Assembly (NCBI GenBank): GCA_010093515.1
Contig: MU001683.1
Coordinates: 250,084-314,083, forward strand
Source: Lineolata rhizophorae
Taxonomy: Eukaryota > Ascomycota > Dothideomycetes > Lineolatales > Lineolataceae
Length of the DNA: 64,000 nt
Direction: 5' to 3'
Positions 891-56,100 of the stretch are shown in pieces. Under the pieces are notes generated by a model. The model saw only the letters and a list, made by a program, of their open reading frames with translations, was not told the DNA's origin and ran no database searches. Numbering within the stretch: position 1 is the stretch's first letter; each line of letters opens with the position of its first letter. Made by a program: the position numbers and the translations under genes.

Positions 891-899
891 AAGATCAGC

Positions 900-27100: not shown

Positions 27101-28090
27101 CGAATGTCGGCACTCGTTCGGGAGAATTTTATTGATCTTGGTTTTTGAAGATAAGTTTTGACTCTTTTTTTGTACATTTTCCTATGGCTATCGCGTTTGC
27201 TACTGGGTGCCAAGCGGTGCGGCCCGCTACTCGCTGGAGATAGTCAAATGAATTTCGCTTCAATGGAATCCAGTCCACCTATTACGTATCGATAAGTGAA
27301 ACTGTATCAGGTTATCCGCTGATACAATCGCCCGTTGACATGCCATGCCACGATAATGTTCCAAAAATTCTAGCTCCACTTACCAATGAGAAAAACGAGG
27401 CCGTCGCGCCGCGACCCGGTACGCAGGGAATTCTCACGCCCCAAGTTCGCCGGTTACACCAACCATGCCCTATACGTCGGAGTCTCGCGAACCAAACCTT
27501 GTCCATCTTATCGGCTCTTTCGACCCACGAGGCCATGCACAGACAGCGGCATGTCCGCTCATGTACCTCGCCTACGTCTTTGAAACGGAAAATCCGGGGG
27601 GATAAGGTCACAAGAGAGAGCGACAGAGGGGGAAAGAGAGGCTGGCCCGAATGCACGCACGCACGCACGCACGGCCGTCGTTCCCCCTGTCCGCGAAAAG
27701 AAAGAGTCCCAAATCTAAATTCGCTTGCCGAAACCCCGGGGCCGATCGCGTCGATGCCGCCGCGCCCTGAGTGGCTAGTCCTTTTCGTTTCCTTTGCGGC
27801 AGAGCTGCGAGACCCTCCGCGAGGCCTGTTTGGCTTCGTATGTAGCCTGGTTTGCGCGTGCGGTGTCCGATGCAGGTGTACCCAGGTACCGAGACGGACG
27901 GGTTGCTAATTATGGAGGTCGCCTCTGGGGGCGTGGTTGTAGAGGCGGGGCCTGACGGCGTCGCGCCCTTGGTGGCGAGTTGGGATGATGGCGTCTCTGG
28001 TTTGAGCTGCCACGTGGATACGTCTTGCTGCTCGGAAGTGCCGTGTCGCGAGACTTGGCGAAGGGAGAGTGGGAGGCATTGATTAGATAC
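21129..28090. other. Long intergenic stretch, no supported gene
   Basis: The first kilobase is probably the promoter and leader of the scaffold gene. Frames of up to about 250 codons at 21.2-22.0 kb overlap on both strands and are Arg/Pro/Gly-rich, typical of chance frames in GC-rich DNA. A TACCTAGGTA palindrome sits at 22332-22341 and a (GCAC)n microsatellite at 27653-27673. I see no tRNA, transposase or domain trace between 22 and 28 kb. Confidence 0.45.
27653..27673. repeat. (GCAC)n microsatellite
   Basis: Five uninterrupted GCAC units in intergenic DNA. Confidence 0.9.
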
Positions 28091-29890: not shown

Positions 29891-29892
29891 TA

Positions 29893-31869
29893 GAAATTTA
29901 CTCCTACAACCATAGACACCAACAGCAAAGGTCGTGGACAGAAGGCCTATAGAAGACAAAGCACTGACCCAGAAGAAGTGATTGAGGCTGCCTTGAAGAG
30001 TGGACTCTCAGACCGGTTCACGATAGATCCTCACGCTATCCACCGGAAGCTCAAATCAAAGAGCAAGATCGCTTATGATAGAGATCTTCGATTATGGAAG
30101 GCGTGAGTTGATGATAATTCCAAAGACATTGGAAATACAAGTTGATCTATATAGCTACCTGAAGAGATACCCAGACTCAGACCCAAGGGATATGCAAACA
30201 ATGAAACATTTCATGGACACGATATAGCTTGAAATTAGAGGTCGACTCAGCAAAGAGGCCAAGAGAACAACGCCTCGGAGCGTGTGTATCAAAATCCGCC
30301 GATTCTGTAGCACATGGAAACGAAATGACCTTAAGGTCATTTCCGGCAAAGTCAAATACTCAATGGCATCGGTGAGTTTGCTATTAGGATTAGACTATTC
30401 ATTTCTAAGTGACTAACAATTTTAAAAGCTTATCCCGGGGGATCTAAATGACTAAGTTGGCGCAGAAGACATCAAACATGATACGATGTTTTTCACCATA
30501 AAGAACTACGATGGGTGCCGAGTGGATAACACCAACCTGTTACAACCACTGCTACACTCCAGCTAGGTTACAGGAGGTTTACCAAGCAAAGTACCACGTG
30601 AGGACCAAGGAGACAAGAAAATGATAGTCTTGACCATTGACCTCAGATAGGATGTCGAGTTTATGGCGGCGTAGAACAACAGAGAGCCGGGATTCAAGAT
30701 GGGATTCAAGAGAGAGCATTGCAAAGGAATGGACGACAAACAACGAGCTAAAAGGTTGCCAGGCCCTCGTTTCGTGCTGACCAGCACTCAAGCCAGAACA
30801 CTCAATGGCGGAGAAAAGGGTGGGGTTAGATTGCTTACCACCTCCTCTTTATGCTCAGCCAATCTTGCATTGGCTCGCCAACATTCTCTCATCTGATGCC
30901 TTTAAGGATTACCGCACGATCAAGGAAGTTTTGAAGCTCGAGCCGCCTGAGAACGAAGATTTCTGGGTCGTCGAGTGGGCAAAGGACATGGAGAAGAAGC
31001 CAGTCTTTCTAGTATAGTCCTCGGAGGGGCCGCGAAAAGAGAGCAGGAACCCAATAGCAAGTGGCAGATAAGCCTTCGACTGGGCAATACGTGCAGGGTT
31101 CGTCAATGGTGTGGGCCTCCACGCCCCGCGTCGCGAGATCCTTACCAAGACCAACGGTATGCAGTCTGGTTTTCTAATACGGTTCGCCATTAATCGAGTC
31201 TCATTAGACAGTAGCGAGACAATATGGCAGGTGTTAAAATTCGCTGGATAAAGAACCCCAAAAGTCCTGCTCAACTATTACCTTGACGATATGTACGCCA
31301 TTGACGGTGTGGAAATCTTTCTCGGAGAGAATCCCAAGAAAAGCCTGACTACCGACTTCCGCTCGTCGACAATGAGGAGTGCGTAGGTGCCTCAGACTCT
31401 CCCTTCTGAAATCCAGGCGGAATTGGAGAACAAGAAGAAGTGTGTCTCCCTGGCGGACAGACTGAATCGCCTTGAGGAGCAAATCAGATCTGCGATAGAG
31501 GCACAAGAAGCCCAGCAGCTCAAGGCGGAGCGAAGCCGAATGTACGAGAGACGCCGTAAACTAGAGCATTAGGCCCTAAAAGAGCACTAAGAAAGCTAGG
31601 TTCAGGTATACCCGACTAAACTGGAGGAGCATAGACAACGCGACTAGCGGAAAGGGCACTTTGACCGCATCCGGGATATAAAGCCCGAGTTGGACCGCCT
31701 TGCTCAGAATCTATCGCTGAGAGTTCCTCTGCGAAGCCTAGGAGTCTCAGCTCTGCGAGACCTTATCGCTCTCCTCAAGGCCGACTGCTGCGTGGCGTAC
31801 CAGCAAGCGTTGAGGCCGATAGATAGTTTTTGCCCAGTCCCATTCTGTCGTCAAGAGATAGAAGAGTAA
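29893..31869 (+). mobile_element. DUF3435 tyrosine-recombinase relic (Starship captain family)
   Basis: Pieces in several forward frames line up in the order of fungal DUF3435 proteins. An N-terminal block contains IAYDRDLRLWKA then YPDSDPRDMQTMKHFM and RRFCSTWKRND. A middle block has LPPPLYAQPILHWLA and NEDFWVVEWAKDME. The HxxR-type catalytic motif is visible in GVGLHAPRREIL (about 31110-31145). A C-terminal coiled Glu/Arg-rich block has LPSEIQAELENKK and VPLRSLGVSALRDLIAL. DUF3435 tyrosine recombinases act as captains of Starships, giant fungal cargo-carrying transposons. This copy is broken by several stops and frame changes and is unlikely to be active. A possible C2H2-like remnant near 32300-32370 (RCPFTCSSEGDIWHHLEDIH) could be its displaced C-terminus. 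Family call is fairly firm; Starship membership is inferred. Confidence 0.75.
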
Positions 31870-33618
31870 GTGGACCCTCCGTCCATCCTTCTCACGGCCA
31901 CAGCCCTCACCGTTCACCACTCACTCACTGTCTTCGCAGGCTTGCCGCAAAAAAAAAGATGAAAGCACGTGTTTCATTGTTTCGAACAGTAGTACTACAG
32001 GACAAAGCTAGGTTTTGCGTAGTTCTGCTTTTATTGTAGTACCTGTATAACTACAAAGGAGGACTAGGCAACCCACTGCCAGCGTCGTATCGACAATCAA
32101 AACATACCGTTCCGTTGCAATCCAGTCACCTTCCACACTGCGGTTGCTTGTGCCTGATATTGTCCCTCCTGCCTGAAAAATGGCAGCCCGTCGACTGAAA
32201 ATCGGGTGTACAAGTACGCAGTCCAGTCTAACTAGCTGAGGCCTATCCACAATCGCATCCCGAAATGCATCAAAATGCGAGGCGGGACAAGTTCGATATC
32301 ATGTCGGCATGTGCGATGTCCTTTCACCTGCAGCTCAGAGGGGGATATATGGCATCACCTCGAAGATATTCACAGCATTCTCCAGCCCTCCGGTAGGGAA
32401 AGCCCCCCATGGAAGAGCTACCAGATATTGCAGCCAAGTCATTCTTCGCGGCTGATGATAGTCAGACGCCCGCTCCGCCGGTATTACAAACATTTGTTTA
32501 TTGTCCCGGAGCCTCTACTGGAACTCGTTTGGAAGATGCCTTGCCAGTAGAACTTCCTCGAATCTCAACGAACGTAGCAGACACAACACCAGTATTACAC
32601 AACATCTCGTCAGACCCGACGAGCAAGGACCGAGCTATTGCTATGTCTTACAGCCTAGCGCAGAACCACTAGTGCATCTAGGTCTTTCCCAAATGCATTA
32701 GGTCCTAACAGCTGGTTTTTGGAGACAATATCGGAGGATAGCAATAGTCTTCACGACCATAGAATCGGTGCATTGCTGCAACCAGAAAGGCAACAGCCAA
32801 TCCCGCTGCGTGAATAAGAGGATTGACTAATGGCACATTATTAATACGCGCCGGTTCTCGGCAGGCAGCAAAGCAATCACTTTTAGCCGATATTGAAGCC
32901 TTTCTTGCCTAGTTGAGGCTCGATCCATGTTGATTATCCTGTCCTTCAAGCAAAAACTTCCACTCCTGGGGTTATCAAGTTCCCATCAGCGTTCCCATGA
33001 GCGGTTGAGTTTCAACAGGTACGTCTAGACGTCGCCTTATCCTTGAGCAATAAGAGCTCAGCAGGCATACAGTACACCGTGAGTCGCTAGTTCTCCAGCA
33101 CTGCCCGAGAAGACACTATCGAGATAGCGTAAGTGGAGAGGCATGAATGGCTGACGGACACCGCCCTAACCCTTATAATGGCCAACTGTACCAGGGACCC
33201 AAAACTCCGTGTCTCGGGTCAAATTTTCAGGGACCGTACTTGTCTAGTGTCGGTCCACGCATATGACGACGGCACGGCTGAATACTCCAAGCAAAGTTGC
33301 AATGATACGCAGGAGGACTGAGCCCAAGCCACACGAATGAGGATACATGGCTAGAGTTTAAGTGCAAATGCGGGCTTACACGAAACTGACTCCGTCATGG
33401 TGGTCCCAAATGACGGCGGTCTACCCCCGCGGGCGCTGTAGTGATATTGGGCGGTACTGGGTTCTCCGACATGGGCTGGTGATAGAAGCTCCCTTTATGC
33501 ATTTCAAGCATGCCAATGCAACAATTGCACACACGTTCCACTCTCTACGTCGTGCTTAAGCCTTTTGTATACTCAGGCGTGGGTATTGTTGACTAGGCCC
33601 ACCGCCTCGAGTTTGGCG
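31870..33618. other. Stretch between DUF3435 relic and kinase, fragmentary
   Basis: Only short frames. The segment near 32300-32370 reads as a Cys/His-containing fragment that may belong to the DUF3435 relic. The rest (32.4-33.6 kb) has no recognised domain and probably holds eroded sequence. Confidence 0.35.
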
Positions 33619-35100
33619 CTATGTCCGGTCAGAATCCGTGTACAGCCAGGGATCCTTTAATAACTCCTTTGCTGAACTTCGGTTTTCCGGGTCCCACCTC
33701 ACCATTTTTTTTCACGAACCCGATGAACATGGATTTCTCCTCACTACTGAGCATGGTGATGGCGTTCTCAAAGCTGAAATCCTTTGGTACAAGTTCAAGG
33801 CTTTTTAGCTGACCTAGGCGTATGTCAGTGACAGCCTAAAAGAGTAAATGGAGACGGACCATTGGGGTAGAAAAACTTCGACGTTCTCCGGCCACGAGCG
33901 AGGAGGTACTCAGGCGGCGGGCCCATGAGAGCAGTCATTTGAGCAAGGTGTATGTGGTCATCGTAGTCGCCATCCTTTCGTGTATCTACTGGGCTGAACA
34001 AGGCCTTGCCTTCCAGCAAGTCCCACAGCTTCAACCATCCGACGTCAGCATATCTCGATCCAGGATATCAGTCCGAACTGGGACCATACCATCACACCAA
34101 AGCTCCATATATCGGCGCTGTAGGTGTAGCCTGCATCAAGAACGACCTCTGGGGTACGGTAGATTTCCGCCTGAATACAGCCATTGCGTGATGTGGTTCC
34201 TAACACTGAAAGACCAGAGTCCGCGATCTGCACAACCCCCGTAGGAACCAAAAAAGGGCCATAGTTATTTCGCGAGAGGTAAATGGTTCGCCCAGTAACG
34301 AGTTTCTGCGGTAACGGGTGCTGGTACTCGTCACGAACATCCCTCTCTAAAATTGTAGGGTCCTCAAATTTGACCAGTACATTGTCAGGTTTGAGATCTG
34401 CTTGCCTGTTAGAGCTGCAGCGCCAATCCAATATAGAACTATCATACCAGTGTGGATAATCTGACAATCTGAATGAAGGTAGTCGAGTCCATGGAGGATC
34501 ATTTGTACCGTAATCTTAAGAACATCCGACGGTACGACGCCACCGATGAACCTGCGACGATACAGCCACAAGGGTTCCCGCAGGGGTTCGAGAACAAGGC
34601 AGAGATGTTGCCCAGACACCCCTTCGATCGTGAATGAGTCGAGAAGCCTTCTGACAAAGTTCCACCCTTCATGACTCCTATTCATTCGAGAAATGTGTTG
34701 GAGAATGGCAAGTTCGTTTTCGGCCGCGTCGTTATGAGTATGGTGGTTGCTTGTGTTTATCTTAATTGCGACATATCGCTCCCTGGACCAGCGCCAACTA
34801 CAGAACGTTAGACAAAGCCAGAACATGAAGGAGACAGGGAGACACGAACCAGTGTAGATCTCTGGCTAGCCATACGGTTGAACTAGAGCCATAACCGAGT
34901 TTAGTCGCTAGCTGATATCGATCATTTAGGATTTGGCCGAGGCGGGCGGGGTAGAACTGGCTGGGATGGTAGTAGGGAGTCTTTTCTTCCTCTATGGGCT
35001 GGCGAGGATCGAGGCAAGGTGCAGTCGTAGGGGATGGAGGCCACGGGGGATGACGAAAAACTATGGTAGGTCGAGCTCTGCATTGTTTGAGGGAGAACAT
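33619..35100 (-). pseudogene. SRPK-like Ser/Thr protein kinase, one frame break
   Basis: Exons 35100-34850, 34797-34448, 34397-34090, 34028-33860 and 33813-33619, joined by introns of 50, 52, 61 and 46 nt, give a nearly complete kinase. Visible are the Gly-rich loop (LGYGSSSTVW), the ATP Lys (YVAIKI), the HTDLKPDN catalytic loop typical of fungal SRPK-like kinases, and the C-lobe (YTYSADIWSFGVMLWDLLEGK). SR-protein-type kinases of this expanded fungal group have mostly unknown substrates. Three oddities: DFG reads DSG, APE is preceded by Thr (YRTPEVV), and a run of 8 A (in VKK, about 33700) shifts the frame just before a typical ending (RWDPENRSSAKELL). Either a recent pseudogene or a sequencing slip in the homopolymer. 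Four clean introns argue for a recently functional gene. Confidence 0.75.
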
Positions 35101-38100
35101 GGGACTTGGCTAGCTAAAGAATGCGGATATTGCTTGGCAACGGATACGTAATGCCGCGCGCATCCCGGCACCCTTGAATGAGCCTTGAGCCGCAATTTGT
35201 TTTTCTTGCGGACAATACTTGACTTAGCTCGGCAAAGCGCGGGGTATTTTCTTTCTTCGGTCACCTGTTGTTCCGCGTGCACGCACCATCCACAGTCCCT
35301 TAGAGAACAACACCCGCCCGCGGCTGCAATGGCCTCTACGGATTCTAGCATTTCCCCCAATGCTTCGAATGCCGTAGAGGGCCATCGCGGCCGTCGAGTG
35401 GGTACAAAACGCGGAATACCGCGAGCTAAGCACGGGATCATTTCATGAGGCACAACGACGGAGCCCAAACACCCAACATTGCCGCCATGACAAACATCAC
35501 AGATCCGGATTGGTTTTAGTCCACCCATGGCACCGACAAGGTTTGCACCGTCCCACAACGACGAGCTCTCGGATAGAATAGTATCACCTCTGCGCACATC
35601 AAGCGCCAGACATCCCCTGTCGCCCAATTTCGTGGAGAAGGCTTCGTGACCCTTCAACACTCGACAAAGTCTACGGGGGTGGCGCAGGAGCTCTCATACC
35701 TAGTAATTCGACATTTATAATCGAGCGGAGCATTGCACCTCATGAAGGCATTCTATAACCCACGTCATTCCTGCCTATAGCCGTCAAACGCAACCTACGG
35801 TCGCGTAGGAATCCAGCAGGAAGTAACGAGAATACATGGGAAATACGCAACATCAGAGTACGCACAGGTCCTGTGGGAGCAAGGATGAACAATCCAATAG
35901 ACGAAGCCGATGACTGGGGGGAGACTTGTAGGTATACGAACAACCACACGGTGGGATCACACTGACACAGCCTTACAGGTGGACACGAACAGAGCGTTTC
36001 TCGGAGCAATGTATATTCTTGAGGGAAAGAAAAACATGCAGTGCGGAAGATTTCTCTAACAGAAGAACAGAGTTGTACATAGACAGTTAGCATCAAAACA
36101 GGAGGTTGGGAACAACTGGCCTTGATTCAGCAGCAGGGCGAAGTGGGGCATTCCTTGGGCACGCGTCGGAGGTCTGCCAGGTCCCGTTAGCTGGGCATAG
36201 CTGCGGATAAAATAGCGGCCACATCTGAGTACGAATCAATCAATCAATAGTAACGAGCACTCCGAAGCGAAAGTCGAACTCACGAATACTTAGTCAATTG
36301 GCTCTAGCAGTGATGTCGAAGTGAGATCCTGGTGAAAGACACGCTATAAGTGAGGAGAGATGCAGAACAGAATAGTTACCGGGACTTCCAACCTATGAGG
36401 GCCTTGTAAGACGTCGACGGCTTGCTGCAGCGGGAGATTGGGGTAACGAGCGAAAGAGGAAACCTTTTCCCAATGCGCACCTTGACTGTGAAATGTAGTG
36501 TGAAAGAAAGTGTGAGACAGAAAAAGACAGAGAAAAAGTAATAGAGAAGGGAGGATAGAGATAAAGTAGAGTGTGACTCACCAAGGGCTTAGTACCATAC
36601 ACACTGCAAGACTGCCGAGAGAAGTCACTGGAGATTAACGAACTACGGACCTTCGAGAGACACGAAAGGTTTATAAGGAACCAAGTCCAGGAGCCAGGCT
36701 CTTGGCAGCGTTATTGCTGCCCTGAGATTTCGTCTCCAGCTTTCATCTATTACCTATCCAGCGGGATGCCACATGAAGTCAAGCCCCCTTTATCGCGGGC
36801 ATCTCAGTCTGCCTCACCTTCATGGTCATGTGATTGCAAACCACCTCTCTGAGACGTCATCTGTCTATAAGTGGTGCCTAAGAAATCTGTACTCGGCCAT
36901 GAGGTGGGCCTCAGACATTGGTTCAAAGCCACATTTGTGACGTAAGTATGCGAGGTGATGCTGTTGGCACTGCCTCAAATCAAGAGCTCATAGGGCTCAC
37001 AAGTTTCACTTCCCCAACACCTCCTACGCGTCCCCTGCGGGAGCTGAGGAAGGCGGCATTGGCATCGCCCGCTTGCAACGTCGCTTGTCTCGCGGCTGCC
37101 GAATCCATTGTTCGGTTCTGCCTTGCCTGTATGCATACGTGATCGGGAACACCGGGAGGAAGGTGTGCGATCTCTGGCAGGCACGGATATCCTAGAGATG
37201 TGGCAGATTCCGCTGCCCTGCCGCTTGTGTCTGCCACCACAGCTGACTCTACTAACTCAAGGCAACGTTTTATACCTATAGGTCGAAGTCCAGGACTAAG
37301 TCCCCTTAGTTTTCTCTTCTATCTTGGAAGAGCTCCTTGAAGCCTGATCTGTAAGCCCCTGGATGTTCATGCACTAAGTCCCGGCCCTGCCAATTCCTGT
37401 CATGTGTTCCTGCGTGTCTGTGAATACGCAGCCAGACATGCTCCTCCAAACCGTCTAGGGGCCCGAGAAGCAGGAGGTGATAAGCCATGCCTTACCCATC
37501 TCCGCTCTCGCTCTCGACTCGACCAGGGTGCGTCCGTGGAAAGTCAACTGTAACCCTGCCTCCATGTTTTTGACACGCCCGTAGATGCGAGATCCAACTA
37601 AAGCCAGCATGTCAGCCTGCTTTGCCAATGTGAGAAAGGAATGTAAATCTTTCAGAGGAGAAACTGTGGCATATTTCAGTACTAGCAAGGTGAAGCTAGC
37701 ATATTTCCCTCCTTTCGTTTGCATAGTCCCCCTGTTTCTATCGCGACATATTCATCCCAAGTTGTGGTCATTGAAAGTTCGAAAGACCAGTTTCGAGACA
37801 GTCTGTCAACCAGTGAGAAAAATGGCCCTTTTTCTACGGATGGCAAAGGGAGCGTCATGGAGCCATTCGGATGCACAGCAATGTGTACGCCTTCAACCAG
37901 AGTCCACAAACGCATCCCTATAAACTTAGTTCCACTTTGTCTCTCTAGTCGACTTAGCCGGGATAGTAGAATAAGGCTCATCAACTGCGGCGTCGTCAGC
38001 ATACCACGTACCCTCAATACAGGGACGCACGCCCGCTGCACAGGTAACATGCTCAGCAGCACCGGCCCACCCATGAAAGAGGAAACCCCAATTGACGAGA

Positions 38101-42990: not shown

Positions 42991-43967
42991 TTATTCCAGC
43001 CTGCGCGTCCGTCAGAAGGGGAATGACAAAAATCCGAGATTTGTACCTGCAGAACAACGCTTGGATCGGGCAAGGGCGGCAACAAACTTTGGCCCCGCAT
43101 CTCGGGATGCGGAGCATACAGGAAGGAAGAGGGAACATACCTCTGAATCAGATGCAGCCCGGAATCTGTGTCGACGATGCCGCTGACGTCGCCCGGCTTG
43201 AGCGCGAAGGCCGCCTCCTCGAACTTCTTCTGCATGTCGCCCTTGCCGAAGAAGCCGCTATCGCCTGCGTCAGCGCCGTCCAAGAGCCACCTGCCGCACG
43301 TGACACGCACGGGTAGAATAGAAAAGAGCTGGAAGACGAAAGAAGAGGATGGGCTGCGCCTTACAGATCGCCCCGCTTCCGCGCGCTGCTGCAGTCGCTC
43401 TCCGTCACGGCCAAGTCCCCCAGGCTGACCTCGCCCGACTTGATGCGCTGCTCGTGGCCCGCGATGATGGCCGCCGCTTCGTCCTTGTTCCGGGTGATCT
43501 TGGCCTCGCGCCAACTCGCCGGGCGCCTGCTCCCCGCGTGCTTGACGAGCAGGTGCGCGGCGCGGATCTTGCCTCCGCCGCCGCCTGCGCCGCCGCCTCC
43601 GCTTGCCGCCGCCGCCGCCGGCCGCCCCGTCGTCGAGCTGTGGTAGTTGCCCATGTACACCTTGAGGCGCTCCGGGTCCGTGCCCTCGGGCGGCTCCCAG
43701 CGCGACTCCTTGGTCTCCGGGTTGAAGTAGTAGGGCAGGTTCTTGGAGTTGGAGTGGCGGACCTCCCAGCCAGGAGGCAGGCCGGTGTCAGCCTGCTGGG
43801 AAGGGTGAGGGCCCGGCGCGAAACGCGCGAGGTCTTTGTGTCAGCGTGACGTGTCTTTGTTGCTTTTTTCTTTTTTCTCTTTGTTCTTTTTTCTATTTTC
43901 CCTTTTCCGCCTTCCTCCCCTCTCGTTTGAAGCAAGATGGACGATGGACGGATTTATTTCTTACCAT
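42991..43967 (-). CDS. PIN1: Ess1/Pin1-type WW-parvulin prolyl isomerase
   Basis: Four exons: 43967-43965, 43792-43365, 43257-43141 and 43000-42991 (558 nt, 185 aa). The first exon is the ATG alone and the last is 10 nt (codes LE and stop). Residues 6-36 form a WW domain (LPPGWEVRHSNSKNLPYYF, SRWEPP) and an Ala/Gly linker runs from 59 to 75. The rotamase domain follows with HLLVKHAGSRRP, the phosphate-binding basic patch, the catalytic Cys in SDCSSARKRGDLGFFG (about 135) and SGLHLIQRLE. These enzymes isomerise pSer/pThr-Pro bonds, notably in the RNA polymerase II tail. An acceptor at 43795 would add one Gln. The linker between WW and rotamase is longer than in yeast Ess1. Divergent from RPB9, about 1 kb apart. 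Confidence 0.93.
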
Positions 43968-44953
43968 TTTGACGGCGATCTAGAACCGGAGAGCCGCACT
44001 CGGTCTGGGTTTACTTAAGCGAGCGAGAGTAGACGGATGGAAGGCGGAGGCGAGACCGAGCTCAAGAATCGGGGCCGTGCGACTCGACTGCGTTGCGACG
44101 CGCGCCGTCCGTTAGGGGGATGGGAGGAGCAGGGCGAGGAACAGCGGCGGCCCTGGGCTTAAGTACTAGTAGTGATAGTAAATAAGAGGGTGCGGGCCAG
44201 GCGCGTGCGGTCTTTAAGAGAGGGACGAGGCTCGGTGCCGCAGGAAAAGGCAAAAACGAAAGAGAAGCGTGACGGGCGTTGTGACCCGCGCAACAGAAGC
44301 AACGGGGGGGAGGGGGCGTGCGGTATGGTGAGTGGCAGCGTGTTGACGTGCTGCGGGGGCAACACTGCGGGGGCTGGACCAACGGTGCCCCTCCGGCCCC
44401 TGGCTGGGGCCGCCGCGCTTACACACCTGCCTGCTACGTACGGAGTAGTGCGGTCGGCCATTGCCGTGGCCCGCTGGCGCCCGCCTGCAGCTGACTCAGC
44501 CGCCGCGCCTTCCCTTAGCCGTCGCTAGGCCCTGTCACATGGAGCTGCTGCATTCAACCAGGTGTTGTTGACGGGCGCCGCCTTCAATCGCACCGTGGAA
44601 CATCCACTCTCCGTCCCGTGGCAGACTCACCTTCCGCGCCCGCAAACACCGCCAAAGCTGCCGGCAACCGTGGCTCGTTTGCTTGCCACGTACCTCCTCT
44701 CCACCGCACCTTCCACTTGCTCGAGCGGCAGAGCTACAGCGGCACGACCACGGAGCGCTGCTTCCTCTCGCCTCTACGCCCCGGCGCCGTGACTCTTCCG
44801 CCGTCGACCTTGCCATAACATTCACACACGCGCCTGCGCAAGGCCGCACCCAAGCCGCAGAGCTTAAAGATCTCTACCAGCACAGGTACGCTGCTCGTTC
44901 CCCACACCATCTTATCAAACCCACGAGTCATTTTTCAATCAGAGCTATCCGAG
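43968..44953. other. Shared upstream region of PIN1 and RPB9
   Basis: Nearly 1 kb between two divergently transcribed genes, both tied to RNA polymerase II. No gene, repeat or clear TATA box seen. C/T-rich runs near 43860-43930 lie in the first intron and leader of the isomerase gene. Confidence 0.5.
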
Positions 44954-46509
44954 ATGGCTTCGTTGCGCGCGCCGGCGTCTAACCAGCGTGTACAGTCCGA
45001 AGACCAGTACTCCGAAGCTCCCACCCCGAGTCTAGATTCCGAAGCTTCCACCCTGACTCTACATTCCTCGTCGACCATCAAAGCCGAGTCGGACTACACG
45101 CCCGCACCATCTTCGCACACCATGTCCGCGTCGCCGGCGCCTACCGACGAGGGCGCCGCCAACCAGCAGGGCAAGAAGATCGCCTTCCGCTTCTGCCGCG
45201 AGTGGTACGTCCTCTCCACTTTCATACCCACGTCGAGGTACACATGATCGCGACGGAACGGGCCTATTGTAAGACTCTACATAGCCTAGGACCACTTCCG
45301 CCCCGTGGTGATCCCTCGACACAATATCACCCGCGTCCGTCGCGATATGGCACCTGCATCCCCGCCCAGACCATTCGTCCCCCAAACACAAAAGCAGCCA
45401 CCGCCTTACTAACTCGAAGCCTTCTGGACTTGTGCCCGCCCGCGCCGTGCAGCTCTAACCTGCTGTATCCCAAAGAAGACAAGGACGCCAACCGCCTCAT
45501 GTTCGCCTGCCGCACCTGCCAGTACGCCGAGCCCGCGCCCAACACCTTCGTCTACCGCAACGACCTCTCCAACGCCGTCGGCGAGACGGCCGGCATCACC
45601 CAGGACGTCGGCTCCGACCCCACGGTTGGTCCCCCTTCCCCAGCCCTCAGCCACACCACCTCTAGCACAAACTCCAACGGCCCCGCGAGCGCCTCCTCCT
45701 CTCCTGCCCGCGCTGCCGCTGCCGCCGCCGCCGATGACGACGACGCCTTCGCCACCGGCATGCCCCCAGAGTTCTGCACCCTCTGTGGTGACGAGATCGT
45801 CTGCGAGATCTGCGGCCAGCCCACCGAGTACGGCTGCTTCCTCGAGGTGCTGGACGAGGACGGCGACGTTGACATGGACGCGGGCGCCGGCTTCGTGGCC
45901 TCGTCTTCCTCTTTGTCTGCTCCTCCTCATCATCATCATCAACAGCAGCAGCAGCAGGAGCAGCAGCAGCAGGCGCAGCAGTTCGGCGGTGGCGACTACT
46001 CGACCTCGGCTGCCGCGGGTGGTGGAGGAGGTGCCGACGCGGGCCTATGAGACAGCAAGAGATAAGGAGAGAGAGGAGCCCCGGGAGAAGTAGCCTTCTA
46101 GCATTGCCCGCTCATTTCATTGCCCGCCTGCGTGATGATGAACATGAGAGAGCTTTGCTGACTTATGGATTTTCTCTCCCCTCGTGCGGTTTTGCCCTTT
46201 TCCCTTGCGGGGGTTTTCGGCGAAACGCACGTGTGAGGGGCGTTCTTTTTTCCTTTTTCCCCTTGCGTATTAGTTGCCGCGCATCCAAAAGCCCTGTCCT
46301 TCGTGCAGCGAGCCCGAGGCCGTCTACTTCCAGTCTCAGCAGCGTACGGCCGAAACTGGCATGGTGAGTTCTCCTGTTTTGTTCTTCTTGATGTGGGCTG
46401 TTAGGGCCCCGAAAAGCCGACTTTGGGTTTCGATACTCACGCGGACTTTTTTTTCCCTTTGCAGAAACTTTACTACGTGTGCTGCTCGTGTGGCAACGTC
46501 TGGCAATAA
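44954..46509 (+). CDS. RPB9: RNA polymerase II subunit RPB9, with coding intron
   Basis: Canonical splice: 44954-45204, 45453-45624, 46274-46363, 46465-46509. Starting at Met57 (45122) gives about 129 aa, the usual size; the ATG at 44954 adds 56 Ser/Thr-rich residues and may be leader sequence. The N-terminal zinc ribbon reads FRFCRECSNLLYPKEDK with CRTC. The Jaw/C-terminal ribbon has KPCPSC, VYFQSQQR and YVCCSCGN. RPB9 supports start-site choice, fidelity and TFIIS-stimulated cleavage. The intron between the ribbons is 649 nt with a weak donor (GTTGGT at 45625). It reads on in frame for 141 codons to a stop at 46048-46050 with strong GC3 bias. That alternative form would lose the C-terminal ribbon and gain the extension listed below. 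Family assignment is firm; two forms are inferred. Confidence 0.92.
45625..46050 (+). CDS. In-frame coding extension inside RPB9 intron 2
   Basis: If intron 2 is retained, translation continues 141 codons. The extension has a Ser/Pro/Ala-rich start, an Asp run, two close CxxC pairs (EFCTLCGDEIVCEICGQPTE) with a further Cys after them, an acidic DEDGDVDMD segment, and a His/Gln-rich then Gly-rich tail. Codons end mostly in C or G as in the real genes here. The protein would keep the first RPB9 zinc ribbon and replace the TFIIS-like one by a new Cys-rich knuckle. No family is recognised for this part. Alternatives: an exonised intron, a retained isoform, or a fused separate exon. I do not know which form is made. 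Confidence 0.6.
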   Translation, partial: VGPPSPALSHTTSSTNSNGPASASSSPARAAAAAAADDDDAFATGMPPEFCTLCGDEIVCEICGQPTEYGCFLEVLDEDGDVDMDAGAGFVASSSSLSAPPHHHHQQQQQQEQQQQAQQFGGGDYSTSAAAGGGGGADAGL

Positions 46510-47107: not shown

Positions 47108-48271
47108 TCAAATCCTCCCCTCTCTCCTCAACCCCTCATACAGCCCCCACGCCGCCAGCGTCTTCCCATCCCTCGCCCCCTCCCTCCACAGCTCCGCCAG
47201 CCTCACCACCTTCACCGTGATCTTCTCCCCGTGCTCGCGCAGCCCCGTCAACTTGCCCGCCCACTCCTCCAGCGCCGCCCGCGGCACGCTCCGCTCGTGC
47301 AAGAAGACAGGCATGAACTCGTCGCAGGCGCCGGGCGAGGGGTACATCGCGGGGCGCAGGCGCTCCTGCTCCTGCTCCCGCTCGAGGGCGTCCTCGGGCC
47401 CGCCGGGTCCGCCGGGCGCCGGCGCCAGCGCCAGCGCCGTCATGTCGACCAGCTCCTCCGCCCGCACCACCAGCCCCGTCTCCTCCTCGATCTCGCGCGC
47501 CGCCGCGCCCGCGAAGTTGCCGCCGCCGTCGAGCATGCCGGCGGGGAGCTCGGCGAAGGCGAGGCTGCCGGCCGCGACGCGCGGCTGCACCGTCAGGAGC
47601 ACGTACTTGTCGTCGTCGGGGCGCGGGGCGTGGCGTCGCGGGCGGCCGCCGCCGCGCTCGCCGTCGCCGCCGTCCTCGGCGCTCAGCACCAGCATCATGG
47701 CCACGCTGCCGCCCCGCAGAAACACCGCGCCCGGCAGCTTCTCCCCCGCGTCGTTCGCGACTTCCGCGACTAGCTTGACGAACCCGATGCGTCCGCCGCC
47801 GAACCGGTCCACCGCCTGCACCGTCACGTGGCGCAGCGCGTAGGGCGCGGCGTGGAAGGGGTGCGTGGGCGAGGCGTGCTGCAGCGAGAGCGAGTGCGTG
47901 AGGGTGCGGAGCCAGGAGGTGTAGGGGGCGAAGGAGTGGAGGTCGGTCGGGGTGAGGGAGAGGTGCGAGGGGATGGTGAGGGGGATGGAGGGGAGGGGTG
48001 AGGCGTTGGTGGGGGAGGAGGTCGACATGCTGGCGGTGGTGGACGGGCCTTTGGTCGTGAGGAGACGGCAAGAGTTAGCGGGATGGAGATGCGCGGATGA
48101 CTGGTAGAGGCGGGAGGTTGGAGGGCTGCTTGGTGTATGGTGCGCGGTTTTGACGTTGACAGCCGGGTGGGGCGTATAGCGGAAGAGGAGAGGTTGGTTA
48201 TGGAGCGGGACCGGAGAGGAGCTGGATAAAGTAGGATTGGTCGTTACGCGTAAAACGCGCCATGGCTTCAT
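47108..48271 (-). CDS. Nudix hydrolase, ADP-sugar diphosphatase type
   Basis: A single 387-codon exon. The Nudix box region reads PAGMLDGGGNFAGAAAREIEEETGL; the spacing fits GX5EX7REUXEEXGU with the first Glu replaced by Gly, as I recall for relatives like plant NUDX14. Downstream blocks (YPSPGACDEFMPVF, KLTGLREHGEKITVKVV, LAELWR) also match that group, which hydrolyses ADP-ribose or ADP-glucose. The N-terminal 80 residues are Ser/Thr/His/Arg-rich with little acid, compatible with a mitochondrial presequence, or the real start may be Met82 (MSTSSPTN). Two low-complexity inserts, Gly/Arg-rich before the box and Gln/Glu/Arg-rich after it, are unusual in length. Divergent from the AAA ATPase gene. 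Confidence 0.85.
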   Translation of the reverse strand: MKPWRVLRVTTNPTLSSSSPVPLHNQPLLFRYTPHPAVNVKTAHHTPSSPPTSRLYQSSAHLHPANSCRLLTTKGPSTTASMSTSSPTNASPLPSIPLTIPSHLSLTPTDLHSFAPYTSWLRTLTHSLSLQHASPTHPFHAAPYALRHVTVQAVDRFGGGRIGFVKLVAEVANDAGEKLPGAVFLRGGSVAMMLVLSAEDGGDGERGGGRPRRHAPRPDDDKYVLLTVQPRVAAGSLAFAELPAGMLDGGGNFAGAAAREIEEETGLVVRAEELVDMTALALAPAPGGPGGPEDALEREQEQERLRPAMYPSPGACDEFMPVFLHERSVPRAALEEWAGKLTGLREHGEKITVKVVRLAELWREGARDGKTLAAWGLYEGLRREGRI

Positions 48272-49281
48272 GTTGGAGCCTTCACTTTTACCTTGAATCT
48301 TTCCAGTTAGTTTATAAAGTCACGCGTCTCGCTCTAGTCACGTGCTTTGCGGAGAATCATGTGAAAGGGTTATTCGCGATAGAAGTTGAACGCAACTAAA
48401 TAAGAATCCTTTGAGATCAAACAGACGGTTTTTGCTTAGCACTATGTGTGCGCTTTTGATGTCGCGATAATTAAAGAAAGAACATCAGATGGATTTACCT
48501 TCCGAAGCTTGACTTCGCAGAGTGGAAGCTCTTGGCTTAAGAATAATCCACATAAGCTATGGGAAGAACACGTGGGTTCGCGGCTTTAAGCGGTCACCAC
48601 GAGAGTTTTGGGCGACAGAGATCGTCGCGGCTCCGTAGGACGTACGGAGTATAGCCTGGGCATTGGGCGTAAGATTGGACAGATCTGCATATACCTAGAC
48701 ACGCGTGCCCAGCCACAGCAATAGGTGGCTGAGCCTTAGTACATAATTCCGGTGAGGTAGCTCCATGCTTCTTGGCATTCCCACCGGAAATCATTCAAGA
48801 ATTCGACCACAACCCAGCCTAACGGTATAGTCTCTACATCAGCTTCTCCTCTCCTCACCTCTCTACATTAACAATTGTACTCTTACCCCCAAGCCCCTTC
48901 AGCCCATGAAATCTTCGACAAATCGATGAAAACCCCCCTGAGACCCCTTTTTCTACCGGGAGTCTACCGGTAACGAGCGTAGTTCTAGGCGTGATTGTAT
49001 TGTACGGACGTCTGTACAGAGCGCCCTCTCTCTCCACTATTATCTCGCACAGGTACTTCTTTCGGATAGTATATGACGTTGACGTCGCATCGTCGCATCG
49101 TCGCATCGTCGTATTATCGCATTGCGCATCGCATATCGCGCATCGTAGGGAAGCCCCTTCGCCCCTAGGACTGAGGAAAGCCCCAAAAGGCGAGATTCGC
49201 TCACTGCACTTGTGTCCATTATCCCAATTTGACGTACTCTCAACCCAAGCATCCAGCAATACTGACAGCCTCCCTAGAGCC
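48272..49281. other. Divergent upstream region with 8-bp tandem repeat
   Basis: Lies between the Nudix gene (minus) and the AAA ATPase gene (plus). GC falls here at the edge of the next block. The 8-mer GTCGCATC is repeated three times at 49084-49107. The frame of the ATPase is open back to 48991, but Met at 49282 is the more likely start, with the rest as leader. Confidence 0.5.
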
Positions 49282-51875
49282 ATGGAGTCGGCCTCTCCGG
49301 AGGAAGAGAATTCCAATCAAGCATGGAACGATGCCTCTCCAGCTGCGGTAGAGATGGGCATGCCTTTCCTTAGCCACAAGCGAGCCAGAGAAGGTTCGAA
49401 TGACACCCTTGTCGGTCGAAGTCTGCCGGATTCAGCGGAACGTCTTGCTCATGTTCCGTCCGGCCCAAAGCGACGTTGCATGAGTCAACTAGAGAACAGT
49501 CCTAGCGCCAATCCCCACTATTTGGTGATTCACAAAGTGCACTGTTTTCAGCAGGATACTAACCACAAAAATCACGAGACAACGACTTTCTTGGACACCC
49601 CGCGGTTGTTTGAAGGAGATAGTAAAGTCAGTCCTCTACGCGGCACTCAAAAATTCCACAACGTGGATCATTATCTAGAAGACCACCCAGAAGTCAACTT
49701 TCTTGTGGAGAGGAAGTACAGCTGCGAAGAGTACCATGAATTGAAGAGAACCGAGTTCGAACGACTTCAGATTCCAACCGTGGATCCCGAGACAGCTCTG
49801 CAGCTACGGCCTTACTTATTCGTTCTTCGAAAATCCGTTGAGCCTGCCACTCCTGGAAACGAAACTCTGACTGTTCTTTCACAGGATCTTCGCAGCGCTA
49901 TTGACGCCATGAAAGCACATTTCTCTGCGAACTTTGTCAACTGGGTAGATGACATGCGGTTCAGGCTGGATGCTCCATACCTACCTCTCCATCACATAAA
50001 GTCTTTGTTCAATGACTGGGCCCCTCAACTACTAAACAAGGAAGAGCTCAAGCAAGCCAGGCTGTTATTCGAATATGTGCAATCCTCTTATGGAGCAGAC
50101 TACGAAGAAGCAGACGAGCTCTTTTCCAAGGGCCAAGTCTCCAAAACTCATTTATACACGCTCTTTTTGCCAGGCGAGACAGTCGTGACTTACGAAGACG
50201 GCCAACCTTTGGCTTTCTCCTTGCAAAGTTGCTCAAGAATATCTGGCCGCCATGGGATAACGCTGCGCTGTTACAACTGGGATTTTGATGGGGCATTTCA
50301 CCGGGCACAGCACTCAATTGAGGTCTATTGGCCTAAATCAGATCCTGCCATTGTTCCCATTGATTCACTTGAGGCCTACCCGCTTAGATCCGATCGCACA
50401 GGTCTTGAGCAAAGACTACGAGTGCGAGGCCAAACATTTTGGGGACTACGCAAGGGAAAATTGGTTAGCTACGAGTCTGACTCGCGGACATTTGAAATGC
50501 CAGTGGTACAAGTCAAAGGCTTTCTTTTTTCGACCTAGTCATATGCTAACTGTGCCAGACCATCCCCCGGTACATGGTAGATATATCAATGCATCGGCAG
50601 CTTTCCGATGACTCTGATATTCCTGAGCCACGAGACGACCTTGGTCAGCACGCCATGGACAACGATACACCACCAGAAGATCCGTTCGTCCTTCTTCTAC
50701 CCGCATATGTAAAGGGCTTTGGATTCCATGACAAGAAGTGGAGTGAGGCTAGGCCATTTGAAGCGAATATCTCCGAGCCTCAGTCGGCCGCTAATTGTCT
50801 GCGCAGGAAATTTATTGGTGGAAGACATCTGCCCTGTTCAGTGGAACAAACGCGCTTTTCGCCAAATAATATTGGCCCACCACAAAAAAGAACTCATTGA
50901 AGCCTTGGTCAGCGAGCACGTTGCTATGGTCTATCCAGCGGACGTCGTTGAGGGCAAAGGCAACGGCCTCATAATACTTCTTCATGGAGGACCAGGTACA
51001 GGCAAGACTCTAACAGCTGAAAGTGTCGCGGAAATTGCAGAAAAACCTCTGTATAGGGTCACATGTGGCAACATTGGTACTGAACCAGAGACTGCGGAAA
51101 AATACCTCGAGTCAGTGTTACATATAGGGAGCATTTGGAAAGCTGGTATGTTTTCCATATTTCGATTTATACTCTATCCCGCTTATGACCTGCAACTCTA
51201 ACCAACCTTAGTCGTTCTTCTAGATGAAAGCGATGTTTTCCTCGAAGAGCGCTCACAAATGGATCTGAAGAGAAATGCTCTAGTTTCTGTCTTCCTCCGG
51301 GTTCTTGAGTACTACGAAGGCATACTTATTCTTACATCCAATCGAGGTAAGCATTGTACTTTATATGAATGTTCAAAACCAGTTTCTAAATTGTATTGCT
51401 ATGAAAGCACACGCGGCAAATCCGTCTTTTCTTATGTGTTTGTACTTTGTCTGTGTGAACATGGCACTATACCGTTTGAAGCTAATGATCCCTTTCAGTG
51501 GGTTTGTTTGATGAAGCCTTTAAGTCTCGGGTTCAATTGGCTTTGCATTATCCACCATTGGACGAGAATGGGCGTTGGAAGATTTGGCAAAATATCTTAT
51601 TTTTGCTACGAAATGAGCCTGGCTCCAGATCTATCAACTACGAGGAACTCGAGAACAGAATCGACTCGTTGGCAAGGCACAGCCTAAACGGCAGGCAAAT
51701 CAGAAATGCGATCAAATCGGCCAGACAGCTGGCTAATCACAGGAAACAGACTTTAGACTGCTCACATCTTGAGCAGGTAATCTCTGTTTTGAGTGAATTT
51801 GAAAGGGATATAGCTGACGCTCACGGGCACTCTGACAATGAGTGGGCAAAATTCCAGCATTTCAGATCAGAATAG
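49282..51875 (+). CDS. Fungal AAA-family ATPase (DUF7025-AAA type)
   Basis: Five exons: 49282-50505, 50559-50742, 50807-51145, 51212-51346, 51499-51875 (2259 nt, 752 aa). The N-terminal half carries the fungal-specific region usually placed before such AAA domains (YLFVLRKSV, LYTLFLPGETVVTYEDGQP, FWGLRKGKL). The AAA core has Walker A GPGTGKT (531-537), Walker B VVLLDESD (583-590), sensor 1 (LILTSNR) and an Arg-finger-like FKSRVQLALHYPP, followed by a helical lid (LNGRQIRNAIKSARQLA). All catalytic motifs are intact. This large fungal family has no settled role; a basic KRR patch near residues 35 and 60 could be a nuclear signal. Codon use is less GC-rich than in the flanking core genes, so it may belong to a more labile compartment. 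Exon 1 could also end six bases later at another GT. Confidence 0.88.
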
Positions 51876-52745
51876 AGTTTGAATAAGTTAACTTTCAAAT
51901 CTATCAATTCAAACGTTTCCTGGATACTTTGACTCAAAAGGGAATTGTGGTTCATTCGCCTAAACTACGGCATTATATAGTTTGAAGCAGTGAGTGCTAG
52001 TTTCAAGAAAGGAGCGAAGTGACCACACCTCGTGACAATCGTACCGGATAAGACACTCAAAACGCCTTGCATTTCTATCACGTGGCCTTTTCCGCCTAGT
52101 AGTTTCTGAGCTTGTAGTCCACATGGACATTGGGGTACAATGATTACAAGTCTCCACTACCTCGTATAAAGCTTCGGCTCGGAGGCGATATCAAAAGGTG
52201 TACAGTACTACGTCAAAAGTCTCCGGACACAAGCGTGCCCCACTAAACCCAAAACCTCTACCGCGTAGCTTTACACCTAAACACTATACTAACTTATAAA
52301 GGTTATACTACATTTTTATTTAACCTAGGTAGATTTCTCTCTATGTTTTCCGAAAATATGAGTAATTTATAGAAATTTCAAGCCGAATGTACTTAATATT
52401 TAGTATACTATTTACTAGCCTGGACTATAACTCTATCTCTTCTATAGACTCTTAACTATACCGTTTAGGATCTACTAGTCTATCGGCTACTATACCTACT
52501 CTATCATATTCTTAAAACGCATAATAATTACTTTAGAATTATCTATAGCTGTCTCTGGGCTAGGGTTAATCTAAGTAATGTTAGCATGTATATAGTTCCT
52601 AGCTAGCAGCCTCGCACCAAAGTGCGATACTATGCCAGTCTTTTGGCCAGGTTGTCTAGTTGCAGGATAGTGCAGGCTAGTTCTAACACTTTTAGATTTT
52701 GCGCAAACAAGCACCCGCGTAGTGTGTACTATGTATGTCTAAGCA
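51876..52745. other. AT/TpA-rich RIP-like patch
   Basis: From about 52200 to 52700 the sequence is dense in TA steps (CTATA, ACTATA, TTATA), poor in CpA/TpG and has no open frame. This is the look of a repeat destroyed by RIP. The original element cannot be named. Confidence 0.6.
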
Positions 52746-53349
52746 TTATACAAGAATAAGCTCCTTCTTAGGGGTAAGTCTCTTGAAGGCAATCAGCCGA
52801 TCCCGCTTCAATGCCTCGTCACTCTTTGCGTAATCCTCAGAAATTGTGTGCCTGTTTTTGACTCCATTCAGATCCACTTTGCCATCGTGATCCTTTTTAG
52901 CTGTCGAGAGCGGTATGGGCGACGATTCTTGCGGGTTTGTCATTCTTGCTGCATTTCAACGCGGTTACGTTAGTAATTTGATACAAAATTCAGTGGAAAT
53001 GTACCAATGTCACCTGTCGGATAGGGCGTAGGCGGGGCGGTAAGCCCCTGATCGCCTCAATTACCAAGAAAAATTTCTGGGGGGTCAACTAAAATTTCCG
53101 GGGTGGTCTCCTTTGTTTTTGTCTTTTCTTCGGCGGCTCCGAGGCGGTCATTCTTTGTTTTTGTCTTTTCTTCGGTGGTTCCACGGATTCCTGAGAATCT
53201 GAACGCGAGCTAGCCTTTGAGTCTGATAGGCGCGGTTTTTTGGGAACATGCTGAGGTCGACGGTTCTGCGTAACGAGTTGCGATCTAGACATAAAAGTTG
53301 TTTTGCTAGATTTGTTCTTATAGGCAGAACGTTCCATCTTGACGCGCAA
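52746..53349 (-). CDS. Possible small two-exon hypothetical protein with basic repeats
   Basis: An 86-codon frame from 53349 carries a twofold repeat EPPKKRQKQR, a strong nuclear-localisation-like motif. A second frame (52943-52746, 65 codons) is Lys/Asp-rich. Between them a good acceptor (branch-like TACTAACG then ATGCAG, about 52950-52975) suggests splicing, but I found no donor that links the two frames cleanly. The repeat is mirrored in the DNA (two copies of a roughly 30-bp unit at 53110-53180). It may be one small gene, two fragments, or chance. Confidence 0.3.
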
Positions 53350-54390
53350 CGGAAGCTTCTATTCATAAATGAGCGCATGTTCTGACTAGCAAGCGATCAA
53401 GGATATTACCTTGAGGACACTTGATCTTGACGTATGCCTGTGCCGAGAACTTGGAAATGTGCCGTCGTTACGAGAAATGCACGGTACACGTGAATGACTT
53501 TTGAGCTTGGAGCATGTTTATTCGCAGACCGGACATGGAGATGGGAGTCGATGATGTATAGCAAAAGACTTTGGTATCGAAATGAGAGCGATGTTGTCGA
53601 GCTGAGCGGCGAGGCTGCAGGCGGTGAGTGGACACTTGGCAGCCTTGCGCTGATGGTGTATCATATTTTCAAGCCTCGTGGTAATTCTAAAGCTACTAGA
53701 ACAGGTCCTGTCGGGCAATGCGCTGCCTTTACACCTACAATGTCTTCCATTTTGACGATATCTCCGTACTGAGGAATCAAACGGTGGGGTTCGTAGGGGT
53801 TCGTAGATGCCTACTGGAATAATATACGGCTTAGTATATTTCCAACAAATCCCCGCTATGGCGACATAGGAATTGATCTGAATACACTGACAAGAGCAAG
53901 AAATGAGTGCGATATCCAAGAAGTAAGTCGAGCGCAACTCTACAGTGATATTTTTGTGACTACAAATATCTGAATGCGTCTGGATTTTAGACTAAAATAA
54001 CCCCTCTGCAAGCTCGTATAGTCTGTATGTTACGGATTTCGTTTCCTAAGGTATGTACATAGTACCTGACCGGCAGCCTCAATCGGCGCGAAGGAAAAGG
54101 GCACAATGCGGCGCAGTTGCACAGTCCCACTTCAACGCCCACCAAACGCGCGACGGTCATCCTTCCATCCGCATGCTATTGAGACATGATTTACGAGAAA
54201 CATCACTCGTGACCGCAGAAAACGAAGGTCGGATTTTACTCTCATACGACAAATTAGATAACAATAGGCATTTACACCATCTTCCTCAGCAACTCAAAGA
54301 TGTATGAGGCGTGGTATTGTCAGCCTGGAACTTCTACGTGAGCAACGCCCTTCAGATTCGTGAGAACCAGACCATCTGATAACTCCTAGG
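53350..54390. other. Intergenic, nothing recognised
   Basis: Short frames only on both strands and moderate AT content. No element or RNA gene supported. The last 90 bases may contain the missing first exon of the DUF7708 gene. Confidence 0.4.
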
Positions 54391-56100
54391 AAGAGGGACA
54401 TCGCTCAAGAGGCATATGTCCAATCAATCGAATTTCTCACGCAAGAATTCTCGTGCAAATTAGAACCTCAGGAATGGCTCAACGGTGCCGTTACTATGAA
54501 CGATATCTGTGCAACAGTTGAGAAGGCCAAGGTAGAGTACACAAAATCTTCTTTGAGGAATTCGAAAGCTTTGGAGTGGATGCATAAATTCTCGTCAAGA
54601 ATCTTGCACTACGGCCAAGTCCTAGACTTGCTGGCCCAACATCACCCCCAATATGTGGCCTTGGCATGGGGAACTGCCAAATTTGTCCTCGTGGTATGCT
54701 TACCTTCTCTACTATGTTCTCTTTTCGTTTTGGAGGCTTGAGGCTCATCCATACGGACTGAAAGGGCATCATCAACCACGAAAATCTGGTAGTGCAATTG
54801 TGCCAAGCACTCTGCAACATCGGAGACGCTCTCCCACGAGCAAAGATCACCGCTGAACTATACAAGACTGACCAAATGAAAGATGCCATATCCAGATTGT
54901 ATGCGCACATTCTGCTGTTCTTCCAACAGGCGGTGAAGTGGTACAACAGGAGCCCTGCTGGACGTGTCCTCTCGTCGATTTTCAAACCATTCGAACTGGA
55001 GTATAAAGACAACTTGGAACAAATCCGGATCTGCGCGAAAAGGGTGGACGATACCGCCAACACAGCCGCAAGAGCCGAGATCAGAGATATCCATATTCTA
55101 GCCGGTCTCCAGGAAAAGTGGCGGGCAGAAACCGACAGAAAATTGCTTGACATGCAAGGGCGTCTTTGCGACTTGCAAATGACAATTAAGGAAGTGCGCT
55201 CGATCGCGTGGGGTGAGTCTCGAATGGCCATGAGGACGAAGATGTTGAACATTAACCCATTAGAGTAGATCACAAAGCAATCTCGGAGGAGACCCGCGTC
55301 GACGTTCGAGAAATGAAACCCCTCATCATCGACATTCATTTCAAACAAGTGATGGATGTCCTCGCGCCCAAAATCTTGCCGGAAGATGCCCTGCGTAAGA
55401 GTCAATCGCTAGTCCGGCGAGGAGCAAAATTCAACAGCGTCCCCCAAGATATTACTGAACTTCTCCAACGTATTGGAGAATGGATGGCGAAGCCGGATTC
55501 GGCGCTTTTCGTTCTCAGAGCTAGTGTTCGGGCCGAGAGAAGGAGATTGCCATCGAGGTCATTGCTCTCCTCCAACCCGCGGCTCCCAAAGTCCTCTGGT
55601 ACTTATCCGGTCCCAACATCCAAAAGGACACCAGCCCCGCCACCAAAGATGTCCTTAAGAGCTTAGTCTTCCAAGCTCTCAAACTGGTCCCAGACATAGT
55701 GTCGCGGAATCTAGAACATCTCAACGCCGCGAAAATGTGCAGCGAGCACACGGAGGCGGAATGGCTCGATCTCCTGACCGCGATCCTAAACCAACTTCGA
55801 AAGTGCTTCATCGTCATCGAGGCCGAGGACGTGTTCCGCAGCTCATCCGAAAACGTCGAATGGGCTGCGACATTCATCGGCCTCTTCCAAACCATCGTCG
55901 ACCGCGCCGCCGATAACGGATGTGTGGTTAAGATTCTGGTCGTCAGTTACGGCAGCGCGGCTCCAAGGCTTCCGAATCCCAGCAACAGGACGGTCTTTTC
56001 CGTCCAGCGACCGATGCCTGTTCCACCACACTTAGGACGAGTGAGCCGCACCGCTGCCGCAAAGACGACGGCATGGCGGAACCTCCGTGCTAGGATATGA
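54391..56100 (+). pseudogene. DUF7708-type fungal protein, one frame break
   Basis: Reading blocks 54391-54693, 54767 to about 55213 and 55271 onward are joined by two clean GT-AG introns. The first blocks match the fungal DUF7708 module (WMHKFSSRILHYGQVLDLLAQ, HHPQYVALAWGTAKF, NHENLVVQLCQAL), often found N-terminal to NACHT/STAND signalling ATPases. A middle segment is helical (coiled). Near 55550 the frame changes; the conserved continuation (EKEIAIEVIALLQPAAPKV, WYLSGPN, FQALKLVPDI) is read in another frame to a stop at 56098-56100. No Walker A is seen, so the protein is not a full NLR. The true start is unclear: Met at 54496 would cut into the domain, so an upstream exon is likely. Probably a recent pseudogene, or a sequencing error. 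Confidence 0.6.

Follow-up and report, generated by a model that had tools for sequence, protein, structure and literature searches.

Genomic Context and Structure of the RPB9 Gene

The window, the whole stretch of 64,000 nucleotides that was analysed, occupies positions 250084–314083 of its contig in an assembly of 31.0 Mb and 48 contigs. Six of ten open frames searched gave a match at E values up to 0.001, and the window genes are of the WW/rotamase, PH_10 and VWA, NUDIX, DUF7025, NPHP3_N and BBE types, with the PH_10 domain followed by the von Willebrand type A domain in a single open frame (18471–19652, minus strand). These genes, together with the introns, suggest a filamentous ascomycete. 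Stretches of about 44–52% G+C (1–8000, 28001–38000 and 48001–56000) alternate with stretches of about 54–67%, and the DUF7025 frame and an NPHP3_N fragment are located within or at the edge of the 48001–56000 stretch. A four-exon fungal RPB9 gene was found at 45122–46509. Head-to-head with it, about 1.3 kb apart, lies a Pin1/Ess1-like frame (43364–43840, minus strand) containing a WW domain (44.0 bits) and then a partial PPIC-type rotamase (20.5 bits, cut-off 21.7); Pin1/Ess1 acts on the C-terminal domain of Pol II. The parts of the RPB9 gene are as follows.

45122–45204, plus strand: RPB9 exon 1, with its start codon at 45122, although the in-frame ATG 44954 may serve instead; the spliced translation resembles yeast RPB9 from residue 21.
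45205–45452, plus strand: intron 1, 248 nt, GTACGT...CAG, with CTAAC whose branch A lies 40 nt 5′ of the acceptor.
45453–45624, plus strand: RPB9 exon 2, the remainder of the first zinc ribbon and the linker, ending in ...GSDPT; PF02150 at spliced residues 22–56.
45625–46273, plus strand: intron 2, 649 nt, phase 0, GTTGGT...TTAG; its removal gives GSDPT-LPRIQK, compared with GSDPTLPR in yeast.
46274–46363, plus strand: RPB9 exon 3, the first half of the second (TFIIS-type) ribbon; PF01096 at spliced residues 92–129, together with genomic matches.
46364–46464, plus strand: intron 3, 101 nt, GTGAGT...CAG.
46465–46509, plus strand: RPB9 exon 4, the end of the second ribbon and the stop codon TAA.

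Several introns are ordinary in RPB9 genes, with four in fission yeast and five in human according to passages of PMC13300194. With the in-frame ATG at 44954 as its start, RPB9 would be 56 residues longer; the added segment is rich in Ser, Pro and Thr and has a GC content by codon position of 0.54/0.59/0.66, which is not clearly coding. A possible 57-nt leader intron (44886–44942, GTACGC...CAG) lies immediately 5′ of this ATG, and an AATAAA is located 3′ of the gene, at 46778.

Identity of the Spliced RPB9 Protein

Joining of the four exons yields an RPB9 of 129 residues that contains both the N-terminal RPB9-type ribbon (PF02150, 50.0 bits, cut-off 25.2) and the C-terminal TFIIS-type ribbon (PF01096, 53.7 bits, cut-off 21). 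As the first-pass annotation stated, the second zinc ribbon is obtained only when 649 nt are spliced out. In a sequence search of the PDB, residues 21–128 matched yeast RPB9 chains with an E value near 2e-43, and the nearest solved relatives were all RPB9 chains (2e-43 to 1e-29), one of them an RPB9/RPC10 fusion (3qt1), while RPC10 matches (from 1.5e-8) and RPA12 matches (from 3e-4) came behind them. When the spliced protein was searched against its own assembly, the four exons of RPB9 and one weak place on C5 (E 0.32) were recovered, the weak place having 32% identity to the spliced protein over the second ribbon. The TFIIS-type ribbon family occupies four places in the genome including RPB9 itself, and the other three are taken to be TFIIS, RPA12 and RPC11. 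The loop of the second ribbon (exons 3 and 4, 46274–46509) reads QRTAETGMKL here and QRRKDTSMVL in yeast RPB9; we take the former to be nearer to the TFIIS motif than the yeast loop, and to be without the Asp-Glu pair of TFIIS.

An Open Frame within the Second Intron

If intron 2 is left in place, the exon-2 frame runs across the donor GTTGGT for 141 further codons before it reaches a stop. The coordinates, the frame and the stop given for this extension by the first-pass annotation were all confirmed, and the two close CxxC pairs, the acidic parts and the His/Gln part that it described are all present in the translation. The extension can be divided as follows.

45625–45732, plus strand: part A, 36 codons, a Ser/Pro/Ala-rich linker in the RPB9 frame, of unclear coding status.
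45733–45897, plus strand: part B, the core, 55 codons, coding-like, with DDDDAF, C-x2-C-x5-C-x2-C-x7-C and the acidic EVLDEDGDVDMD.
45760–45762, plus strand: an in-frame ATG that could begin a separate 96-codon ORF.
45775–45837, plus strand: the five Cys codons, with first bases at 45775, 45784, 45802, 45811 and 45835.
45898–46047, plus strand: part C, 50 codons, with Ser, His/Gln and Gly/Ala runs.
46048–46050, plus strand: the TGA stop of the extension.

Acidic stretches flank the Cys motif on both sides and the His/Gln run comes after it. At the DNA level, intron 2 has 41 other matches in the genome. Forty of them fall on the CAG-type (Gln) run at about 45924–45992 (intron positions 300–368), so that at least 40 similar matches to the tail exist elsewhere in the assembly, some of them neighbouring, which indicates that CAG-type runs are common in this genome. 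The remaining match covers intron positions 92–136 (45716–45760), where it takes in the Ala run and reaches 28 bases into the core, which is therefore partly low-complexity at its start.

The openness of the frame is weak evidence for coding, because dinucleotide shuffling left at least 141 codons open from the donor 46 times in 2000 for intron 2 and 172 times in 2000 for the 426-nt extension by itself, and because the exon-2 frame is also open in the 5′ direction through intron 1, giving 355 codons in total. These figures favour an explanation by chance, in which a GC-rich intron with trinucleotide runs happens to be open and the Cys-rich stretch is a coincidence. Open frames are indeed common here, since two antisense ORFs, one of 177 aa and one of 107 aa, also overlap, and the low complexity of parts A and C, where the repeated matches on the Q-rich and Ala runs fall, points the same way. 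However, chance does not readily account for the composition of the core, as described below, and we consider it unlikely.

Coding Signature of the Extension

Third-position G/C was counted over informative codons, and P values were referred to the 0.545 G+C of the neighbouring non-coding DNA. The whole extension has G or C at the third position in 105 of 139 codons (P 2.5e-7), and the excess is unevenly distributed: 48 of 53 in the core (45733–45897, P 1.5e-8, with borders that were picked after inspection of the sequence), 26 of 36 in part A (45625–45732, P 0.023) and 31 of 50 in part C (45898–46047, P 0.18), compared with 52 of 56 in exon 2. The first-pass annotation had credited all 141 codons with the bias of real genes; this holds for the core, but its flanks, which make up 86 of the 141 codons, have no clear coding signature, and the coding-like signal is carried mainly by the 55-codon core. 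The GC content by codon position is 0.67/0.42/0.92 at 45754–45897 and 0.58/0.46/0.93 in exon 2, whereas such a phase is absent from intron 1 (0.63/0.58/0.57) and from the part of intron 2 beyond the stop (0.53/0.47/0.57).

The contrast between third- and second-position GC in the best 48-codon window is 0.54, a value reached in none of 2000 shuffles of the intron and none of 2000 shuffles of the extension, while a double CxxC appeared in 14 and 10 of the 2000, respectively. The strongest coding-like windows span 45742–45885. Among the training ORFs, 39 of 702 true-frame windows were open with a contrast of 0.5 or more and GC1 above GC2, compared with 1, 1, 11, 0 and 1 of 702 in the five other frames. 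In DNA not covered by ORFs of 120 codons or longer, no window out of 6118 reached a contrast of 0.5, a control that omits long open frames by design. Both the shuffles and this control, like the P value of the core, speak against chance. A codon log-odds model trained on 25 long ORFs (15606 codons) gave +0.044 per codon for the extension and +0.070 for one antisense frame; it also failed on exon 2, where the true frame scored +0.107 and one antisense frame +0.530, so that frames are not separated by it. An antisense gene was also considered, and the minus frame with G/C-rich third positions has a GC content of 0.42/0.67/0.92 by position, an unusual order that makes such a gene less likely. Overall, intron 2 probably holds, or recently held, coding sequence.

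Similarity of the Extension to Known Proteins

No Pfam family matched the extension above its cut-off, and no TFIIS-type ribbon was found in it at E values up to 10 in Pfam, so the intron-retained form would be without this ribbon. The start of the zf-HIT profile (PF04438) is weakly similar to residues 13–26 of a 47-aa piece (E 0.049), with 13.8 bits against a cut-off of 24.7, covering profile positions 3–16 of 30; with the whole extension the E value is 1. The PDB contained no convincing relative, with two sequences at E values up to 10 and a best E value of 0.099, and when 60 aa of the core were modelled by AlphaFold from the single sequence, the mean pLDDT was 49, which makes the model uninformative. 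The new knuckle that the first-pass annotation had placed beside the first ribbon thus stands in its frame and its Cys motif, but as a motif and not as a domain.

Two possible origins of the extension were rejected. A duplicate of the first ribbon gave no BLASTP alignment to the extension at E values up to 100, and a protein search for a copy from elsewhere in the genome returned only its own place at E values up to 0.001. No relatives were found in viral_contigs and genome_contigs, which hold viral, bacterial and archaeal DNA and are uninformative for fungi; the lone viral match, L022, covers 11 residues and is trivial. An RPB9 isoform of this kind was not found in literature searches by titles and abstract openings, and none of the 20 PDB sequences listed for the spliced RPB9 is described as a form with a replaced second ribbon.

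Splice Signals and Routes to the Cysteine-Rich Core

The U1 pairing energy of the intron 2 donor is −5.2, compared with −4.9 for intron 1 and −9.2 for intron 3, and 13.1% of the 6903 GT sites in the window pair with U1 as well as it does. The donor had been called weak, which is right in relation to intron 3 but not to intron 1. No branch-like YTNAY was observed within 100 nt of the intron 2 acceptor; the nearest such motifs are 108 and 112 nt from it, compared with 40 and 25 nt in introns 1 and 3. These remote sites would fit inefficient splicing, and they may make the removal of intron 2 less efficient. A de novo intron search of the genome produced 20 candidates with no recognisable donor consensus. 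A branch and acceptor pattern followed 2 of 138 GTTGGT donors, against 6.6 expected from a control pattern, in a test of low power in which canonical donors were hardly enriched either (GTAAGT, 6 of 61 against 2.9 expected; GTACGT, 6 of 127 against 6.0).

Four YAG acceptors precede the cysteines, and splicing of the exon-2 donor to any of them would lose the frame. Among all GT donors there, with introns of at least 40 nt, the single frame-keeping pair is 45629 (GTCCCC) to 45769, which would skip part A and whose donor is poor (U1 −2.6). A cassette exon or a shortened intron is therefore an unlikely route, and, since the acceptor joins do not give the cysteine frame, the core is reached most simply by read-through from exon 2 or by an internal start at ATG 45760. 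The internal start corresponds to a nested small gene, in which a 96-codon protein would be made from a transcript of its own. The strongest coding-like windows do lie around and after this ATG, preceded by part A with its unclear status, which is in favour of such a gene. However, the agreement with the exon-2 frame, a matter of one in three, and the openness from the donor would then be coincidences, the latter of modest size, as 71% of 5000 mononucleotide shuffles leave part A open. We consider a nested gene very unlikely.

A second donor could in principle place the cysteines between the two ribbons. If the phase-0 GT at 45847 (GAG|GTGCTG) were spliced to the acceptor of intron 2, both RPB9 ribbons would stay in place, separated by 74 additional codons with all five cysteines, and its U1 energy (−5.4) is comparable to those of introns 1 and 2. 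This three-knuckle form is nevertheless highly improbable in our estimation, as the donor GTGCTG has no G at +5 and the coding-like signal continues beyond 45847.

The fate of a retained transcript depends in part on where it ends. Fungal poly(A) signals are degenerate, so that a negative hexamer search speaks only weakly against an isoform made by intronic polyadenylation. None of eight poly(A)-like hexamers tried was present in intron 2, including the part between the stop and the acceptor, and with the AATAAA at 46778 this suggests that the retained mRNA would probably end after exon 4. Such a transcript would probably carry exons 3 and 4 as a 3′ UTR, with its stop ahead of an exon junction, and would resemble an NMD substrate. 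These features favour unproductive splicing, in which the retained transcript would be degraded by NMD or kept in the nucleus, the tail would not be a working protein and retention would set the level of RPB9. The position of the extension stop upstream of intron 3 agrees with this, and passages of PMC6315744 describe intron retention as the commonest form of alternative splicing in ascomycetes and as often leading to NMD. However, the phase-specific third-position bias of the core is left unaccounted for, and this explanation seems to us unlikely.

A Possible Switchable C-Terminus of RPB9

The best reading of the locus, to which we give about an even chance, is an alternative C-terminus of RPB9 made by retention of intron 2. 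With intron 2 spliced, the ordinary two-ribbon RPB9 would be produced, and exons 3 and 4, intact and yeast-like, suggest that this form is in use. With intron 2 kept, translation would continue from ...GSDPT through the 141 codons and terminate at 46048. The resulting protein would retain the first ribbon and the linker but not the TFIIS-type ribbon, and would carry in addition a Ser/Pro/Ala linker, a short Cys-rich acidic core and a Gln-rich tail. As no stop separates the core from exon 2, whose frame it shares, intron retention would be the simplest route of expression, and the third-position signature of translated DNA in the core suggests that this frame has long been translated in evolution. 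The variant subunit would most likely come from a minority of transcripts that keep the intron. The interpretation of the first-pass annotation is thus partly supported: the in-frame, coding-like extension is upheld, mainly for 55 of the 141 codons, its expression by retention is a proposal, and the knuckle is a motif.

In view of RPB9 biology, the variant subunit would presumably dock on the polymerase through its first ribbon, without the role of the second ribbon, and could compete with normal RPB9 for the polymerase, possibly in a dominant-negative manner. The second ribbon had been described as needed for TFIIS-like cleavage, a statement that needs care, as RPB9, though related to TFIIS, has itself lost cleavage-factor activity according to passages of PMC5715097. 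In yeast, lower RPB9 expression leads to higher error rates and more intron retention accompanies low polymerase fidelity, as reported in parts of PMC4868539. A more speculative reading, which we regard as quite unlikely, is a fidelity-linked splice switch, in which RPB9 retention under stress would let Pol II change its own fidelity subunit; a subunit without the second ribbon, bearing a Cys-rich acidic and Gln-rich tail, would then occupy the place of RPB9 on Pol II.

Production of the tail would mean that a core subunit of Pol II also exists in a form that lacks the TFIIS-type ribbon, and the role of this ribbon in the living cell, as well as a tuning of transcription accuracy by splicing, could be asked directly. 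The minimum result is a 55-codon coding-like stretch within an intron, hidden by ordinary gene models.

Comparison with Known Systems

The spliced protein resembles known RPB9, such as the yeast chain 1i3q_I and human POLR2I, in both ribbons, and matches the yeast protein over residues 21–128, but the gene differs in that intron 2 here offers another C-terminus, with which the second ribbon would be lost. The predicted retained form is similar to MoxY of Aspergillus flavus, in which, according to passages of PMC6315744, one intron that is kept or spliced alters the stop and the tail. The MoxY intron is 58 bp and both forms are seen in ESTs in the same account, whereas the RPB9 intron is 649 nt and contains a Cys-rich coding-like core. 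TFS4, an archaeal paralogue of the cleavage factor described in parts of PMC5715097, belongs to the same two-ribbon family and became an inhibitor by means of its C-terminal ribbon, which makes it a functional precedent for a variant in which the second domain is changed. However, TFS4 is a separate gene whose true ribbon carries three lysines, while the RPB9 case is a putative splice variant whose Cys motif is short and acidic.
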